Below are positions 1,637 to 46,462 of a DNA stretch of 47,846 nucleotides, in pieces. The DNA comes from a virus: IMG/VR virus record IMGVR_UViG_3300021181_000439, positions 1 to 47,846 of that record; one strand, written 5' to 3'. A model generated the notes under the pieces. The model did not search any database. It saw only the letters and a program-made list of their open reading frames with translations, and had not been told where the DNA came from. Position numbers and translations under genes: made by a program. Every line of letters starts with the position of its first letter. Within the stretch, counting starts at the first letter, position 1.

Positions 1637-2239
1637 ATGCATCTTGATTCCACTCGATGCCTTCAGTGCGGCACGCAAAACAAAAAGCCGCCATGGCCGC
1701 TCGGAAACAATTTCACGACGTATCCGGCCATCGACAACGACCGGAACATTATTGGTACCGCTTATTGGCTATGCTCGGACGAATGTTATGACCGCGCTCT
1801 CGCGCCACACATTGATCCACACTACGGACTTTTTAAATCTGCGAGAGATCATCCGACCTTTAAACAACTTGACGCGATTCCCAACGAACATGACCCCGAC
1901 GTTGAACCCAATTGTCATTGGCTTGCAGAGGGTCTTCACATGGATCATACAATAGAGTTTCACGCTCTTTGGAAGATGCGCCAACAACAACAAATAAACA
2001 GCGCGCATCAAGCTCTGTTGACCAACATTAAATACCGGGAAGAGCAAAATAGGATAGCCGAAGAACAAAAGGCCGTCGTGTCCGAACAACGTGCAGCCGA
2101 GAGAGACGCTGCCCGCGTACAGCGAGAACGAGAGCGCGACGCAGAGCGACAACGATTGTTAGCAGAAAGGCAAGCGATACAAGACGCCGAACGTCGCATT
2201 GAAGAAGAAAAGTGGCGGCCTGGCCCGTTTAACATATGA
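1637..2239 (+). CDS. Cys/His and coiled-coil protein upstream of the coupling ATPase
   Basis: The 200-residue protein is not recognised. Its N-terminus has a zinc-binding look (CLQCGTQN near residue 9, then CSDEC near residue 50, an FCS/MYM-type spacing). Residues 110-190 form a long charged helix rich in E, R, Q and A (repeated EEQ and RERERDAERQRL), predicted coiled coil. Its stop overlaps the next start by 4 bp (ATGA), so it is translationally coupled to the ATPase and may be its partner. There is no clear Shine-Dalgarno or -10 hexamer before the ATG, only the terminator 16 nt upstream. Confidence 0.75.
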   Translation: MHLDSTRCLQCGTQNKKPPWPLGNNFTTYPAIDNDRNIIGTAYWLCSDECYDRALAPHIDPHYGLFKSARDHPTFKQLDAIPNEHDPDVEPNCHWLAEGLHMDHTIEFHALWKMRQQQQINSAHQALLTNIKYREEQNRIAEEQKAVVSEQRAAERDAARVQRERERDAERQRLLAERQAIQDAERRIEEEKWRPGPFNI

Positions 2240-3756
2240 ACCCCGAAACTCGCTTCTCAGGACAGTGGATCGTAGCGCGACAAGGGGCTGGAAAGACCAA
2301 TCTGCTGTTGAATATGCTCTGCGCCGATCTACAGAGAAATGCATGTATCATAACTATTGATCCAAAAGGCGAACTCACTAAAGCAATTAAAGACCTCGAC
2401 CTGGGTGAACGTTTGGTTCTAATCGATCCGAGCGAGCCCTTTGCATTCAATCCGCTTGATGTACCAAAGACCGATATCAAACGTGCGACTAATCAAGTCG
2501 AATACATCTTTCGCGCGATGCTCGACACCGCAACGACGGACAAGCAAAAATCACTCCTGCGCGCACTTATACGGGCCTGCATCATTGCGTTTCCAAATCC
2601 ATCGCTACAGACGATACAAGATCTAATCGTTTCTGGTCTCTCTAACTATTTGCCATACATCGACAAGCTACCTCCTGATCTCAAATCTGTTTTCGACACT
2701 ACTCCTAAAACAGGGGAATGGCATTCATACGATGGAACGCGCACCGAATTGAAATGGCGACTCCGGACCCTCCTTGAATCCGAGCTTATCCAGAAAATGT
2801 TTTCTGCCCCATCCACGCGCTTCCGTATCTCCGATGCAATGGATTCCGGGAAGATCGTCGTTATTGATAATTCTGAGGAAAAAGTGCATTCCGACGGTGC
2901 CAAGTTTCTCGGCCGCTATTTCATCGCCCAAATTTGGATGGCTGCCACGGCACGCTCCATTCGCCCGCAGCACGAAAAACCTCCCGTCTATGTTTACATA
3001 GATGAAGCGGACCTCGTCATCGACGAAACAGTGGCAGAAATCATCGACCGTTGCCGTAGTCAACGGATTGCGCTGATTTTAGCTCATCAGCGTGTTTCAC
3101 AAATTCAAGATAAAACAATTCTCGGCGCTCTAGAAAATTGCGCAATCAAAATGGCGAACGTCAATGCATCAGAAACCGCCTATTTCAGTAAACATCTCTA
3201 CATCCCTGAAGAGCGTCTAACCAATCTTCTTGTCCCGCCCGCGGGCAGTCAGTTTGCGGCTCATATTCGCGGCGAACCGAAAGAGAGTTCGATATTCGAC
3301 ATCCCGAAAGCTTCATTACCTTTTCCAGAAATGAATGCCAAACAACAGTCGGCTCTACGAGATCGAATGCGTTCCCTGTACGGAATCGAACAGCCCGCGT
3401 CTCCCAAGAAAAACCCGGACTTAGTTCAATCAAGCGAACCGCCACCCGCAAAACCATCAACCGCTCAGCCAACACCATCTACGCTTCCCAACCGCACAGG
3501 CTCCTACGAATGGGATATCACAGTCAGCCCCCGCATCGCTCAAAATGGCGGCTCAATCCCACTCGTCGTCCAGAAGAAAGGCACGCCCACAAAAATTGAA
3601 GTTACGATTCCTCCCAAGACCGCGCATAATAGCGTGATACGTTTGGTCGGCTTCGGTTACTTGAGAGCCGACAACACATACGGCGATCTTTATCTCACGG
3701 TAAAAGTCCCCCCTGCTCCACAACAGGATGATCCCGATTCTTCCTCCGAATGGTAG
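2236..3756 (+). CDS. TraD/VirD4-like coupling ATPase with a C-terminal DnaJ-CTD-like domain
   Basis: The 506-residue protein is a P-loop DNA-pump ATPase of the conjugative coupling or HerA-like group. The Walker A motif is RQGAGKTN (15-22). The segment DPSEPFAFNPLD (64-75) is typical of the family. Walker B is VYVYIDEADLV (251-261), with D256 and E257. The ILAHQR segment (281-286) fits the sensor motif. No N-terminal membrane segments are visible, unlike true VirD4. Residues from about 427 to 492 resemble the substrate-binding C-terminal domain of DnaJ (WDITVSP, then IEVTIPPKT, IRLVGFG, YGDLYLTVKV). A Pro-rich linker (about 385-420) separates the two parts. This fusion is unusual. The gene is coupled to the coiled-coil protein before it and may drive DNA transfer, partition or packaging-like movement of the phage genome. 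Confidence 0.85.
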   Translation: MNPETRFSGQWIVARQGAGKTNLLLNMLCADLQRNACIITIDPKGELTKAIKDLDLGERLVLIDPSEPFAFNPLDVPKTDIKRATNQVEYIFRAMLDTATTDKQKSLLRALIRACIIAFPNPSLQTIQDLIVSGLSNYLPYIDKLPPDLKSVFDTTPKTGEWHSYDGTRTELKWRLRTLLESELIQKMFSAPSTRFRISDAMDSGKIVVIDNSEEKVHSDGAKFLGRYFIAQIWMAATARSIRPQHEKPPVYVYIDEADLVIDETVAEIIDRCRSQRIALILAHQRVSQIQDKTILGALENCAIKMANVNASETAYFSKHLYIPEERLTNLLVPPAGSQFAAHIRGEPKESSIFDIPKASLPFPEMNAKQQSALRDRMRSLYGIEQPASPKKNPDLVQSSEPPPAKPSTAQPTPSTLPNRTGSYEWDITVSPRIAQNGGSIPLVVQKKGTPTKIEVTIPPKTAHNSVIRLVGFGYLRADNTYGDLYLTVKVPPAPQQDDPDSSSEW

Positions 3757-3786
3757 AATATACGCATGGTGCGCCATGGTGCTTAG
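3754..3786 (+). promoter_or_regulatory. leaderless-type promoter and 6-codon ORF before the replication-relaxation gene
   Basis: TGG-TAGAAT (hexamer 3754-3759, overlapping the previous stop) is followed after 6 nt by ATG at 3766. That ATG opens the frame MVRHGA, which stops at 3786. A small palindrome (CATGG...CCATG) lies in it. It may be a leader peptide for the gene at 3834. Confidence 0.35.
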
Positions 3787-3816
3787 CCGCGCCCTGTGAC
3801 AGCTATTATTTCTTTG

Positions 3817-3822
3817 TATAAA
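3817..3822 (+). promoter_or_regulatory. candidate -10 (TATAAA) for the gene at 3834
   Basis: TATAAA lies 11 nt before the ATG at 3834, in an AT-rich stretch with no Shine-Dalgarno. This would give a 5' UTR of only a few bases. Confidence 0.4.
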
Positions 3823-3833
3823 TAAATGGGGCT

Positions 3834-4769
3834 ATGGATGCCCAGAAGAACTACGACCGATATTCAAACGCTCCCATTCTAAACAAGAAGGGCGTACCGG
3901 TTGTTGCGTTGATGGTCGATAGACAACCGGCCATCCTGAAAGCGCTCGCCGAACACAACACCCTTACAGTCTATGATCTCCACACGATCGTCGGTGGCAA
4001 TCTTCGGGCGCTGCGCCAGTCGATGGCTGTTCTCAAAGCCAAGCCCAACGAATACATCCGCATCCTTCCTGAGCAACTCCGTACCCGTAACCTCAGGGAA
4101 AACATCTACTACCAGCTCGCCCCCCGCGGCGTTGAATGGCTCAATGCCAACGGCGAACACGTCCAGCAGCCGCGCAGGGTCTATAATCTGGGCCACACCG
4201 GCCTCGTCTCGCACATCATGGCGTCGATCACTGCCGGCGTCGCGCAATCTTCCAGTGCCAAGCTCATCTCGTGGGAAGAGATGCAGACGCATCCGAAATT
4301 CCCGCGAGAAACGATAACTGCCAAGGACAACACCGCCGTCCCACATCCGACAAAGGGACACATCCGACCTGATACTCACCCCTTCGGTATCGAGCTTACG
4401 AAGGACGGCAAGAAAGCCTTTCGCTTCTTCGTCATCGAGGCTGACAACGGTACCGAGACGATCAAGCCTACCAAGCCGGTCGAATACACCGGCAATTCGA
4501 TCTATGCCAAATTCGAAGCCTATCTGGATTTCATTGAGAGCAAGAGCTTTCACGCCCGATATGGCCTGCCCAATTATTTCGTGCTTTTCGTTTTCACGAA
4601 TCGGACGCGCCTGGACAATGCCAAAGCACTCCTCGCCTCAATGACACGTGGCGGGTCGCGCTACATCCTTTTCCAGCTCGCATATCAGGAACATGCCGCC
4701 CCCGGCTACATCTTCACCAGCGCGTGCGAACGCGTTGGCTTTGAAGCCCTGTTTCTCAACAAACCATAG
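3834..4769 (+). CDS. replication-relaxation family protein
   Basis: The 311-residue protein has an N-terminal winged-helix part (residues 22-100: AILKALAEHNTLTVYDLHTIVG, then YYQLAPRGVEWL). It continues into a nuclease-like fold with GHIRPDTHPFGIEL (about 173-186) and RFFVIEADNGTE (about 193-204). The D and E/D residues in these strands match the Replic_Relax family, which is found on plasmids, conjugative elements and some phages and has a PD-(D/E)XK-like core. The family is linked to plasmid replication or relaxation, but its biochemistry is poorly known. Together with the upstream coupling-type ATPase it gives this block a plasmid/mobilisation character. Confidence 0.82.
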   Translation: MDAQKNYDRYSNAPILNKKGVPVVALMVDRQPAILKALAEHNTLTVYDLHTIVGGNLRALRQSMAVLKAKPNEYIRILPEQLRTRNLRENIYYQLAPRGVEWLNANGEHVQQPRRVYNLGHTGLVSHIMASITAGVAQSSSAKLISWEEMQTHPKFPRETITAKDNTAVPHPTKGHIRPDTHPFGIELTKDGKKAFRFFVIEADNGTETIKPTKPVEYTGNSIYAKFEAYLDFIESKSFHARYGLPNYFVLFVFTNRTRLDNAKALLASMTRGGSRYILFQLAYQEHAAPGYIFTSACERVGFEALFLNKP

Positions 4770-19143: not shown

Positions 19144-20340
19144 ATGGAAGAAAAATGGTTTGAGAGGACTTTAATCGTACTTGGGATCGTCGGCCTCTTG
19201 GTTCTGTTCTATGCGAGCGTCGCCAACGCCGCAGGGACTGTCTGTCAGATCGGCAACGGATGCACCGGCACTTCCACCGCTCCGAGTTACGGCCAGGTCC
19301 TCGTCGGCAACTCGTCCGGAGCCTATAACCTTACGGCCACCTCATCTCTGGGCTTTCCGACCGGTGGCTCCGGTACGGTCACCTCGGTCGGCCTCTCATC
19401 GCCAAATTCAACGCTTACGACGGGTGGCACCAATCCCGTCACAGGCAGCGGCACGATCAACCTCGACATCAACTTGGGGAACAGCAATCAGTGGACGGCC
19501 TCCACCACCTTTACGAAAGTCGTCAACCTAGCGAACGCGTCCACCTCAATCGAAACCGCCGGCCTCGTCTACAACACGGGCATCACCTCGGCCCTCGACC
19601 TTTTCAATTCGAGCCATCAGCAAACAGCCTTCGGCGGCAGTAACTGCTCATCGCACCAATACGCCAATTCCATAAGCGCGGCAGGTGCTTTCTCCTGCGC
19701 CCAGATCACGCTGACAACCGATGTCACTGGCATCCTTCCGATTGCGAATGGCGGCACGAACGCGACATCCCTTACGACCGGCTATCTTCTATATTTCAAC
19801 GGCACGTCCATTGCGGCCACCAGCTCGCCGCTCACTTTTGGCAACTTCATCGCGTCAACAACGGTCGCATCAAACTTCATAGAAGGAGAGCTTGGTATCG
19901 CCACCACAACGACGCAGCTCTCTCAGTTTGGCATTTCCGGGATGAACGTCGGCACATCGACGATCGTATCCGGAGGCCAGCTTGTAAACACGGTCGCCTC
20001 ATCCACGTGTGCAACGGCCTGCACCATCAACTGGAACAACGGGAATCAACAAGTATTTCTCCTCAATGGCCCAGCCCAATTCAATCTCACTGGCACGACA
20101 TCAAATGCAGTAAATGGCGCCTACTACAGCATCTACATCCAACAAGATTCAGTCGGCAGCCGAGCAGTCACGTGGGATGCGCAAAACATTCGCTGGGCGA
20201 ACGGCACCACGACGATATCAAGCGCCGCCAATTCATGCACCCTAATCGGCTTCCACTACCTTTCCAGCGTTCCAAATGGCCAGCAAACAGGTGGCATCTA
20301 TCTCGCCATCGCCTCTTCAACTGCTACAACCTGCATATGA
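19144..20340 (+). CDS. exported or membrane-anchored fibre-like protein
   Basis: The 398-residue protein starts with a signal or anchor (TLIVLGIVGLLVLFYASVANA). A long Thr/Ser/Gly/Asn-rich beta repeat region follows (LPIANGGTNATSLTTGYLLY, then SIAATSSPLTFGNFIASTTV) and a C-terminal domain (SSTCATACTINWNNGNQQVF, GSRAVTWDAQNIRW). The style is like fibre or surface proteins frequent in candidate-phylum bacteria and their phages. A signal peptide on a phage fibre is unusual. It may be displayed on the host surface or membrane. The next gene overlaps by 4 bp. Confidence 0.65.
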   Translation: MEEKWFERTLIVLGIVGLLVLFYASVANAAGTVCQIGNGCTGTSTAPSYGQVLVGNSSGAYNLTATSSLGFPTGGSGTVTSVGLSSPNSTLTTGGTNPVTGSGTINLDINLGNSNQWTASTTFTKVVNLANASTSIETAGLVYNTGITSALDLFNSSHQQTAFGGSNCSSHQYANSISAAGAFSCAQITLTTDVTGILPIANGGTNATSLTTGYLLYFNGTSIAATSSPLTFGNFIASTTVASNFIEGELGIATTTTQLSQFGISGMNVGTSTIVSGGQLVNTVASSTCATACTINWNNGNQQVFLLNGPAQFNLTGTTSNAVNGAYYSIYIQQDSVGSRAVTWDAQNIRWANGTTTISSAANSCTLIGFHYLSSVPNGQQTGGIYLAIASSTATTCI

Positions 20341-37648: not shown

Positions 37649-38080
37649 CTACCGCATTGCCTGCATTTGTATCGTGACGATCCTGTCGATCGTTATATAC
37701 ATTCCTATCGTCATTGCCGGCAAAATCAGTCCCAAAAGCGCTGCTCCAATACCAATCGCTAGTTTCCGCCGCCATCCCTGCGACTTGAATTCAAGTTTGT
37801 ACCAGAACTCCTGAGCGTAACTCTCGCTGTAAGCGAGCAGAGAGAACGCGGCAATGAAAGCAATCCCATAAATCCACCAATCGCCCGAACGCCGTGCCAG
37901 AAAGAATAGTGTAGCGACGACCAGTCCATTACGAACGAACTCCAACAACCATTTATGAATTGCTCTGCTCAATAAGTTTGCCTTGACCGGCCGCTCTAAC
38001 TTCGCGGCCAGCTGCGCGATCTCTCGTTGCCGCTCTTCCTCACTCAACTCCATCAGTTCTTCATAGCTCTTCAGCTTCAC
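37649..38080 (-). CDS. membrane protein with two to three TM segments
   Basis: The 143-residue protein starts at GTG 38080, preceded by GGGAGGG. A charged N-terminal helix (SYEELMELSEEERQREIAQL) is followed by hydrophobic segments (LVVATLFFLA; WWIYGIAFIAAFSLLAY; LAIGIGAALLGLILPAMTIG). Possibly superinfection exclusion or cargo; not recognised. Confidence 0.6.
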   Translation of the reverse strand: MKLKSYEELMELSEEERQREIAQLAAKLERPVKANLLSRAIHKWLLEFVRNGLVVATLFFLARRSGDWWIYGIAFIAAFSLLAYSESYAQEFWYKLEFKSQGWRRKLAIGIGAALLGLILPAMTIGMYITIDRIVTIQMQAMR

Positions 38081-38206: not shown

Positions 38207-38385
38207 TAATTTCGCTGCGTCATGCGCTTTGGAGGTCGCTCGTTGTCAGTGCGGAGGACAGCGCGAGCGATTTGAAGGCGCACGATTTAGGATGATTTCT
38301 GGCGTATCCTAGAAAGCCATGCCGGAAGTATGAAGGTACAAACTACGAAGACCCCGACCTCTTACGAGATCAGGGTCTTTTGTAG
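38207..38385 (+). ncRNA. candidate small structured RNA with promoter and terminator
   Basis: TAATTT (38207-38212) could start RNA near 38219. The RNA would fold into a stem TGCGC/GCGCA (38223-38227, 38278-38282) closing TCGCTCG/CGAGCGA (38236-38242, 38264-38270). TAGGAT/ATCCTA follows (38288-38293, 38306-38311), then a terminator-like hairpin at 38343-38385 with CTTTT in the 3' arm. No credible ORF is present on either strand. Confidence 0.5.
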
Positions 38386-39040
38386 ATGTTCGCCTGAAAA
38401 GGCGCGAGAAGTGCGTCGAAGCCGCAGCTCTCGTACCTCAATTCTACCCTTTCTTCGAACATTTCGTAACCGTACCACGGTGGACAATCCAAACTCCCAG
38501 CCAAGCTGGGGATAACCATCAATCCTTCACACACCGCTGCACACGCCCCTGCAAACATACACTCACTATGTTTGCAGGTATACCGTGCATGTTCCGGCTT
38601 TCAAAAAGCCGCGTCAATTCAGCATATTCCGCCACTGTGCCGTCGGGCTATCCAGCCCCGACCAATTCCAATTCTGGCTGGTTACTGTTCTCCCTTCCTC
38701 TCACGAGGGACAACACCCGATTCCCAGCTCGGCCCTCAAGGGCCTCGCTCCGGAGACGCGGCAAGCCGTCGTCTCCCTTCCTGATCTACCCGATCAGGGT
38801 TCAAGCTAAAGAACAGTCCGTTCTAAAAAGGACAGCAGAGCCGTCCTTTTTCCCCGTCCCGTTCTTTAGCTTGAAGACAGCTGTCCCTTACTGTCCGATA
38901 CACTTCCAGCACGAATTGGAATTGGTCGGGGCTCACAGCCCACGACGTCACAGGGCGGCAATTCACATTTGACAATTTCGTCGATGAAACGCCGAACAGG
39001 TTATACACTTGCGCATATTCCCTTTGGGAATACAATTATT
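38386..39040 (+). ncRNA. candidate large structured noncoding RNA region
   Basis: About 650 nt without a gene carry nested inverted repeats. A first part has ATGTTCG/CGAACAT (38386, 38456), CCCAGC-caa-GCTGGG (38496-38510), an 11-bp hairpin (38549-38577) and CGGCTTT-caa-AAAGCCG (38595-38611). A second domain (38641-38947) is closed by a 21-bp perfect stem (38654-38674 with 38913-38933) extended both ways. Inside are hairpins at 38731-38744, 38752-38776, 38780-38798, 38800-38875 (15 bp plus 9 bp) and 38876-38895. A hairpin ATTCCC-ttt-GGGAAT near 39017-39031 may mark the end. Strand is inferred. Confidence 0.6.
38549..38577 (+). promoter_or_regulatory. 11-bp dyad centred on a -10-like hexamer
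   Basis: CTGCAAACATA and TATGTTTGCAG flank TACACT (38558-38563), which sits at the dyad centre. It may be an operator and promoter for the large RNA domain downstream. Confidence 0.4.
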
Positions 39041-39229: not shown

Positions 39230-39574
39230 ATGCGGGAAATCAAATTCCGAGCAAAAGACACTCACGACCATGATTGGTTCTATTTCACACTCGCCGATCT
39301 AGCTTTTGCTGCCCCTGACTACCTCGAAGGTATCGATATAACCGATACGCTCGGACAATTCATCGGCCTTCAAGATAAACGCGGCGTTGAAATATTTGAA
39401 GGCGATATTCTTCGAATGAAGAACGACAAACGGCCATACTTCGTCAAATGGTTGGAGGGTACCGCGACTTTCTGCCTCTCACATGACGAAGACAGCCTTG
39501 TCGGATTCCATTTCGAAGCATCGTTAAGCGAGATTATTGGCAACATCATCGAGCATCCCGATCTACTCAACTAA
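39230..39574 (+). CDS. YopX-like protein 1
   Basis: The 114-residue protein matches the YopX family common in Gram-positive and proteobacterial phages: MREIKFRAKDTHDHDWFYF, then QFIGLQDKRGVEIFEGDILR and the closing SEIIGNIIEHPDLLN. Function unknown. A second copy follows directly. Confidence 0.88.
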   Translation: MREIKFRAKDTHDHDWFYFTLADLAFAAPDYLEGIDITDTLGQFIGLQDKRGVEIFEGDILRMKNDKRPYFVKWLEGTATFCLSHDEDSLVGFHFEASLSEIIGNIIEHPDLLN

Positions 39575-39580
39575 AATTCT

Positions 39581-39949
39581 ATGCGTGAAATCAAATTCAG
39601 GGCGTGGGATAGAGAACAGAAACAAATGGTGGGCGCTGGCAGTTCGCGAAAGATTGTGTTTCCCGCTGATGGCTTGGGACTTCCCAACTACGAACTCATG
39701 CAATTCACCGGCCTCCACGACAAGGACGGGAAGGAGATCTTTGAGGGGGACGTAATTCGTGCGGTTGACAGTCTTTGGGCAATCCAGTGGGACGAGACTA
39801 ACGCCGGTTTCTGGGCTGTTTGTGATTTCGCTCGCAAAACACTGTTCGACGACAAGAGCGGTCTTGCGTGGCTCAATATCTCGCTTGCTTGTAGCTCCGC
39901 TGAGGTCATCGGCAACATCTACGAAACTCCACAACTTCTCTCCGTATGA
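39581..39949 (+). CDS. YopX-like protein 2
   Basis: The 122-residue paralogue of the preceding protein has MREIKFRAWDREQKQM, LMQFTGLHDKDGKEIFEGDV and AEVIGNIYETPQLLSV. The pair probably arose by tandem duplication and then diverged. Its stop overlaps the next start by 4 bp. Confidence 0.9.
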   Translation: MREIKFRAWDREQKQMVGAGSSRKIVFPADGLGLPNYELMQFTGLHDKDGKEIFEGDVIRAVDSLWAIQWDETNAGFWAVCDFARKTLFDDKSGLAWLNISLACSSAEVIGNIYETPQLLSV

Positions 39950-41372: not shown

Positions 41373-42104
41373 CTACCCGATCGCGGCCGCCACGAAGTCG
41401 CTGTAGCCTACCGTTCCGGACGCCAGCCGGTTATATCTCGCCAGCGTCTCCGCGTCCTCATATGTTGTGCCGGCAGCCACCTTCTCTCTCATCAAAAGCA
41501 CAGCCTGCCTCAGCTTCGGAGACAGTTCTTCCAGGGTATTTACACCGGCGATCAGGCGGTTTTCGCGTTTCAAACCCGCGTGGACATCTCGACCGTAGAA
41601 GCCAAAGTCAGGGACAACGACCTGTCCTTTGAAATGCGACATGAGGAGGAGACCGAGAACGAGTGCATCAAACTCGCCCAGCTCGGCTCGATCGAACCTC
41701 GCTAAATTGACCGAGTTAGGATTGAAGGTGAAATTGGGCGGACTGCACAGCACGCACTTGAGGACCGGTGACATCAGGATATCGCCGATCATGCCCTCGA
41801 CTTCCTCGTCGCCCCGCACCTCGTCGAATCTCTCCGCTTTCAATAAGGCCTTCAGCAGCGCCCGCTTGCCGTTGCGCACCGTCAGCGTGTTCTCGCCCTG
41901 CGGCGATATCGTGTACAAAACGTCGGCGATCTCCCGCGCCTTTTTGTAATCCAGATCCTTCAGCGGATTGAAAGAGTGCTTGTGCGGATCAAATAGCCGC
42001 GGCCGGCGCCAGCTTGGTATTTCCGGCACCTCATCGTTTATGAAAAGAAAGCCGCCCTTCGGTAGCTCGATCTCCTTTGTGAATCCGACGTAGAGTTTAT
42101 TCAT
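41373..42104 (-). CDS. coupling-ATPase-like protein apparently lacking Walker A
   Basis: The 243-residue protein resembles the TraD/VirD4/HerA ATPase core without a GxGK[ST] loop. RLFDPHKHSFNPLKDLDYKK parallels the DPSEPFAFNPLD segment of the 2236 protein, and QGENTLTVRNGKRALLKALL parallels its following helix. GQVVVPDFGFYG stands at the Walker B strand with D but no following E. RENRLIAGVNTLEELSPKL parallels the sensor strand. It may be an inactive partner or a recognition subunit. The assignment is by pattern, not search. Confidence 0.5.
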   Translation of the reverse strand: MNKLYVGFTKEIELPKGGFLFINDEVPEIPSWRRPRLFDPHKHSFNPLKDLDYKKAREIADVLYTISPQGENTLTVRNGKRALLKALLKAERFDEVRGDEEVEGMIGDILMSPVLKCVLCSPPNFTFNPNSVNLARFDRAELGEFDALVLGLLLMSHFKGQVVVPDFGFYGRDVHAGLKRENRLIAGVNTLEELSPKLRQAVLLMREKVAAGTTYEDAETLARYNRLASGTVGYSDFVAAAIG

Positions 42105-45994: not shown

Positions 45995-46462
45995 ATGGGC
46001 TTACTCAATTACACGACGAGGATTGACCCCGACAAAACGGCCGCCGAAATTGCGAAATGCCTCTCCTTGCATGGCGCATCAGCAATCCTCACAGATTATG
46101 AAGAGGGAGTTCTTGCTGCGATTTCCTTTCAGGTCACGATTGGCGAACGAAAGATCGGCTTCCGACTGCCTTGCGATTGGCGTCCGGTTTTGGAGATCAT
46201 CACGAAAGGCAAGAAACGACCGCCAGAGTGGCAAGAAGCTCGGCGAGCGCACTTCGATAGCGAGTGGCGCGCACAGGCGGTTCGCACCGCCTGGCGCATC
46301 GTGAAAGACTGGGTAGAGGCGCAAATGGCTTTGGTCGAAACCCAGATGGCCACGACGCAGGAAGTCTTTCTTCCCTACGCGGTGATGCGCGATGGCCGCA
46401 CGCTCTCGCAACACGTTGAAACTGACCCGTCATTACTCTTGGGCGACGGCCAAAATCTATGA
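45995..46462 (+). CDS. conserved phage protein of unknown function
   Basis: The 155-residue protein resembles a family recurring in phage replication or recombination clusters: LLNYTTRIDPDKTAAEIAKC, ISFQVTIGERKIGFRLPCDW, RTAWRIVKDWVEAQMALVET and EVFLPYAV. The VAWRIIKDWVEAQ helix is diagnostic of it. Function unknown. It starts 3 nt after the previous stop (TAG-CGT-ATG). Confidence 0.82.
   Translation: MGLLNYTTRIDPDKTAAEIAKCLSLHGASAILTDYEEGVLAAISFQVTIGERKIGFRLPCDWRPVLEIITKGKKRPPEWQEARRAHFDSEWRAQAVRTAWRIVKDWVEAQMALVETQMATTQEVFLPYAVMRDGRTLSQHVETDPSLLLGDGQNL

Follow-up and report, generated by a model that had tools for sequence, protein, structure and literature searches.

The sequence considered here, hereafter the window, is the whole of the 47,846-nt IMG/VR virus record IMGVR_UViG_3300021181_000439, which contains integrase, portal and tail genes. 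It includes a gene-free stretch (38348-38962) situated in the intergenic space between divergent transcription units, upstream of two adjoining YopX-like genes (39230-39571 and 39581-39949, plus strand), the first of which matches Pfam YopX and the second of which is alike by eye. On its other side lies a minus-strand gene (37649-38080). Additionally, the minus-strand gene at 41373-42104 encodes a protein family of 243 aa (PKGG...PDFGFYGR) that matches nothing in Pfam or PHROG and for which the structure prediction is of low confidence (pLDDT 59); it is common to seven of the eleven phages bearing the element described below, plus the terminase relative G014, and is found within about 0.4-3.3 kb of the element in six of the seven phages carrying both. 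Elsewhere, 2236-4769 (plus strand) shows a weak match to a TraG/TrwB-like coupling protein followed by a Replic_Relax protein, in the same record as the phage structural genes, and 19144-20340 (plus strand) encodes a protein with a TATSSLGF-type sequence, reminiscent of structural proteins of Patescibacteria prophages. Genome contigs scanned with the RNA pattern and with the terminase yielded nothing, and hence no host was identified.

Inspection of the gene-free stretch confirms the perfect 21-bp closing stem of the original prediction exactly as claimed, with 238 nt between its arms (P3 in Table 1). Across the 47.8-kb record it is the sole inverted repeat of at least 16 bp whose arms are separated by 60-450 nt, and none was found by the same criterion in 647 kb of background viral DNA. 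The nested inverted repeats that had been reported inside the stem are likewise present as a 15-bp perfect hairpin, a 12-bp hairpin and at least four more, with further hairpins outside it down to 38348. A 716-nt region covering these features folds at -294 kcal/mol on the plus and -344 kcal/mol on the minus strand, as against shuffled means of -191 and -244, giving z-scores of -12.5 and -14.1, and none of the shuffles reaches so low an energy; all eleven members of the family fold far below their shuffles. The original prediction also held that no credible ORF exists, and what is found is a mechanical 134-aa ORF (38568-38972, plus strand) lacking a Pfam or PHROG match. A comparison of the window with its best homologue, G009, shows substitutions spread over the three codon phases as 58/53/60 and gap lengths of 11, 10, 1, 2, 2, 2, 1, 1, 1 and 2 nt, none a multiple of three; a protein-coding reading is disfavoured by these even phases and frame-breaking gaps. 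Further, the proposed search against RNA family models found no family in Rfam 15 that matches the element, whether from the window or from its ten relatives.

These ten homologues, all from IMG/VR records, define together with the window a family spanning eleven uncultivated viruses. Two were recovered by sequence similarity alone and eight via inverted repeats or a 3'-flank pattern; terminase relatives were gathered in the process. The region retrieved G009 (IMGVR_UViG_3300027965_000180) by blastn at 73% identity (E 1e-23), in which the element occupies the same place as in the window, downstream of a 70%-identical lysin; the G009 sequence retrieved G001 (E 1e-3). Both are unselected for pairing and each carries a perfect 22-bp stem of different sequence. 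When the relatives were searched for long inverted repeats, G002, G013 and G017 joined the family, with conserved blocks of this kind in their flanks. A pattern scan of IMG/VR using only the 3' arm, the linker and GCGGAA matched 56 stretches, seven of which possess a complementary upstream arm (score 18-25, the rest scoring at most 9); two of these were already known and five are new (L177, L181, L170, L154 and L146, respectively G029-G033). The new records gave no terminase or portal match, in searches run without a positive control, but have other genes in common with the group; the RNA thus seems to move between mosaic relatives. The motif is absent from the remaining fetched relatives, many of them fragments. 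A DNA similarity search of GenBank phages and plasmids with the region gave no RNA homologue, an exact 16-mer of the stem gave chance matches only, and a first conserved-block pattern gave G009 alone besides chance matches.

Each record contains one copy of the element, and all members have a common architecture of basal helices (CCGC...GCGGAA, diverged in G017), a closing stem of 14-30 bp (GCCnCGA...TCGnGGC) and a multibranched interior. The interior varies so much in length (66-238 nt between the arms) and in sequence that, for most of its helices, an alignment covering every member is not possible. The alignment of homologous loci, which the original prediction had proposed as a check, comprises the base and the closing stem, and extensive compensatory change is found in both. 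In the closing stem, where the counts are partly selected because eight members (G002, G013, G017 and the five pattern loci) were accepted by their inverted repeat, 99.4% of cells are paired and 9 of the 15 aligned pairs have changed on both sides. Double changes occupy 42 cells, counting sequences (most of them very diverged) rather than independent events, while shuffles average 13.5 (0/500 reaching 42) and partners slid by 1-3 columns give at most 11. The covariation score of the tested pairs is 0.549; shuffling brings it down to 0.142 (0/500) and sliding to 0.151 or less. The outer GCCnCGAC is conserved in sequence, with variation only at its fourth and eighth positions, which covary.

The basal helices played no part in member selection, and the basal flanks pair better within their own record than with permuted partners (0/20,000 permutations as low), G017 being the one poor fit. 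P1b, for example, reads CUGUG/CACAG in the window, CCGU/ACGG in G009 and AACGGUUCG/CGAACCGUU in G002. Within the interior, P5 has counterparts of different sequence in four further members (G017, G029, G030 and G031); counting that of the window, each of the five versions contains 10-15 perfect pairs, with 46-57 nt in the apical part. The alignment of the window with G009, read by eye, additionally displays compensatory changes in P7, P8, P10 and the terminal hairpin. As a separate observation, the GGACAGCnnnGCCGTCC hairpin at the tip of P5 recurs in G009 as two hairpins elsewhere in that record (L048:5612-5688), between convergent genes.

Fold z-scores fail to separate the two strands; however, the predicted RNA strand is minus on the combined evidence of hairpin, energy, purine content and U.G pairs. 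Terminator-like hairpins were found on the minus strand only, the sense fold energy is below the antisense one in 11/11 members, and unpaired bases on the sense strand are 65-87% purine across the eleven. Further, P2 contains U.G pairs in G001, G002 and G031 (L170), which would become A.C mismatches on the other strand. Scans for sigma-70 promoters were uninformative, no convincing promoter being found. The element spans about 615 nt with approximate ends (Table 1), the RNA probably having its 3' end at the terminator-like hairpin. The upstream hairpins originally described as reaching 38386 are real, but the element continues to about 38348 and, the RNA strand being minus, they constitute its 3' domain. 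The opposite boundary, formerly drawn at 39040, does not hold: the 5' end is placed near 38962 because the basal helix starts there.

Table 1. Parts of the predicted RNA in window coordinates, with the long-stem elements of G014 in the last row
Feature	Position	Strand	Details
Whole structured noncoding RNA, ~615 nt	38348..38962	-	Fold z -14.1; syntenic homologue aligned over most of span
5' strands of basal helices P1a (CCGCC), P1b (CUGUG) and P2 (CGUCG-UG-GGC, GUCGU bulge)	38938..38958	-	
P3 closing stem, 5' arm AGCCCCGACCAAUUCCAAUUC	38913..38933	-	Inverted repeat, covariation
P3 closing stem, 3' arm GAAUUGGAAUUGGUCGGGGCU	38654..38674	-	Inverted repeat, covariation
Linker (GGAUA) and 3' strands of P2, P1b, P1a	38627..38653	-	Ends in conserved GGCGGAA
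Interior hairpin P4 (GGACAGUAAGGGACAGCUGUC)	38876..38896	-	
Interior long hairpin P5, 15 bp perfect	38800..38875	-	38861-38875/38800-38814; tip hairpin (12 bp) 38825-38851
Interior hairpin P6 (CCUGAUC/GAUCAGG)	38780..38798	-	
Interior hairpin P7, CUUG loop	38752..38776	-	CGG/CCG to CAG/CUG in G009
Interior hairpin P8 (GC-GA-GGCCC/GGGCC-GA-GC)	38727..38748	-	GGCCC/GGGCC to GUCCC/GGGAC in G009
3' domain hairpin P10	38596..38612	-	GAGGCU/AGCCUC pairing instead in G009
3' domain hairpin P11 (CCUGCAAACAUA/UAUGUUUGCAGG)	38548..38578	-	CAAACAUAGUG retained in G009
3' domain hairpin P12 (CCCAGC/GCUGGG)	38496..38510	-	
3' terminal hairpin, terminator-like, GUAA tetraloop	38348..38379	-	G009: stem altered yet paired, loop retained
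G014 long-stem elements	L106:18841-19026 and L107:6128-6304		Record 38841-39026 and 46128-46304

The lack of an Rfam match, together with the compensatory change at homologous loci, makes the element a good candidate for a new structured noncoding RNA, as first suggested, now with the strand corrected to minus. On the sequence evidence, we put the probability that it represents a new structured noncoding RNA family, of a fast-evolving kind and distributed in several uncultivated phages, at roughly 0.8 to 0.85. Its covariation-backed structure and absent coding signal are those of large structured phage noncoding RNAs as a kind. The original prediction had placed it on the scale of GOLLD and ROOL without recognising either, and, as far as sequence comparison goes, the element is indeed the same kind of large ornate RNA as these two while being homologous to neither by covariance model.

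ROOL is a phage-encoded, stand-alone, highly branched RNA of ~600 nt with unknown function (PMC12286853). It forms a homo-octameric cage and often lies near tRNA islands. For both ROOL and GOLLD, assembly into cages made of RNA alone, whose purpose is unknown, was demonstrated recently (PMC12286853). The predicted transcript of the element is comparable to ROOL in being phage-encoded, about 600 nt long, stand-alone and highly branched. However, no member of the family matches the ROOL covariance model or any other in Rfam, and a single long, almost perfectly paired closing stem surrounds the branched core, whose interior ranges in length from 66 to 238 nt. No tRNA occurs in the window, as opposed to the tRNA islands near ROOL; G001 and G017 have single tRNAs, at distances of ~2.6 kb and 16 kb from the element, respectively. 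GOLLD is likewise a large, ornate, phage-encoded RNA with a conserved and a variable part, its 3' region being universally conserved and its 5' region less so (PMC12286853). The element shares this general organisation; in contrast to GOLLD, besides the missing Rfam match and tRNA, its conserved blocks flank the variable interior, the base being formed from both ends of the core rather than from a 3' region. The OLE RNA, for which PMC12286853 again served as reference, is likewise large and ornate, with a function that is little understood, but it is bacterial rather than phage-borne, and again is not matched by the element in Rfam.

In functional terms, a stand-alone RNA of ~600 nt would be transcribed leftward, on the minus strand, from the intergenic space and would probably end at the terminal hairpin. 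Its conserved base, consisting of the CCGC/GCGGAA helix, the GUCGU bulge and the GCCnCGAC/GTCGnGGC stem, could serve for recognition by a protein or by a further RNA copy, and the variable multibranched interior could be the body of an RNA scaffold or particle that the phage makes for use in infection, a role modelled on proposals for ROOL and GOLLD. The coupling of a conserved base to a hypervariable modular body suggests that the former might be a recognition or assembly site and the latter a variable scaffold. By this analogy the RNA might have a structural or scaffold role, a proposal to which we give less than even odds. Somewhat more speculatively, the family could be a new class of phage RNA particle, in which a conserved basal/closing-stem module presents a freely evolving, modular body with many branches; such particles might assemble with themselves or with a phage protein, their variability perhaps stemming from an arms race with the host. 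We take the closing duplex of ~22 bp to be a plausible RNase III substrate, cleavage of which would be a processing step and not the function. ROOL and GOLLD are two of the very few large structured RNAs known from phages. A further family that is unrelated by covariance model and combines a conserved base with a hypervariable body would be an independent case for the role of such RNAs, with eleven natural variants at hand for asking what they do.

The position of the element between divergent transcription units could alternatively befit a leader acting in cis on phage genes, or an antisense regulator acting on them in trans, for instance on 37649-38080 or the divergent YopX genes. This is an unlikely reading. 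A same-strand ORF does follow the RNA in the window, G009, G030 and G031; however, the downstream genes differ among members, the next ORF is convergent in G001 and G013, and the nearest plausible downstream gene in G001, G013 and G017 is off-strand or convergent. These differences indicate that the RNA is probably not a leader, at least not generally so. Moreover, in the window the terminator-like hairpin separates the RNA from the downstream gene at 37649-38080.

A decoy function, in which GGA motifs in loops would titrate a CsrA-type host regulator, appears improbable. As in the CsrB/RsmZ-type sponge RNAs, the eleven cores are enriched in GGA (143 versus 105 expected, z 5.0), and G017 and G030 (L181) each display four GGA-containing apical loops. 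Unlike those sponges, several members have no such loops (none in G002, G009 and G013), the number per member ranging from 0 to 4 with one in the window (AAGGGACA), and the element lacks the Rfam match; further, the enrichment of GAA at least equals that of GGA. These phages encode no CsrA, but the target could be that of the host.

The near-perfect pairing of the closing stem, almost purely Watson-Crick and with no G.U in the 15 aligned pairs, raises the possibility of an element acting as DNA, i.e., a long inverted repeat or cruciform used in replication, packaging, transfer or recombination; the coupling-protein-like and Replic_Relax genes of the record could be aligned with such a role. 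We consider this slightly less probable still than the decoy. The shortage of G.U stems in part from the selection of perfect repeats, although G009 and G001 were not so selected, and G.U pairs do occur in other helices. Additionally, the arms lie 66-238 nt apart with nested hairpins between them, the loops are purine-rich on one strand, and the GUAA loop persists although its stem is altered. A MITE-like mobile hairpin, which the inverted arms resemble at first sight in the manner of terminal repeats, or a functionless assembly artefact is very improbable given one copy per record, the same relative position in the closest pair, and the preservation of pairing in several helices, despite altered sequence, across eleven independent contigs.

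Beyond the structured RNA family favoured here, other structured elements were noticed in the related records. The terminase relative G014 has two other long perfect inverted repeats, of 22 and 19 bp, which enclose structured DNA; they lack the family motifs and are therefore not counted as members, but may be further long-stem RNAs. In G001, about 0.5 kb from the RNA, L005:15286-15395 (plus strand) matches the EGFOA RNA family (RF02955) with 50 bits, above the cut-off.
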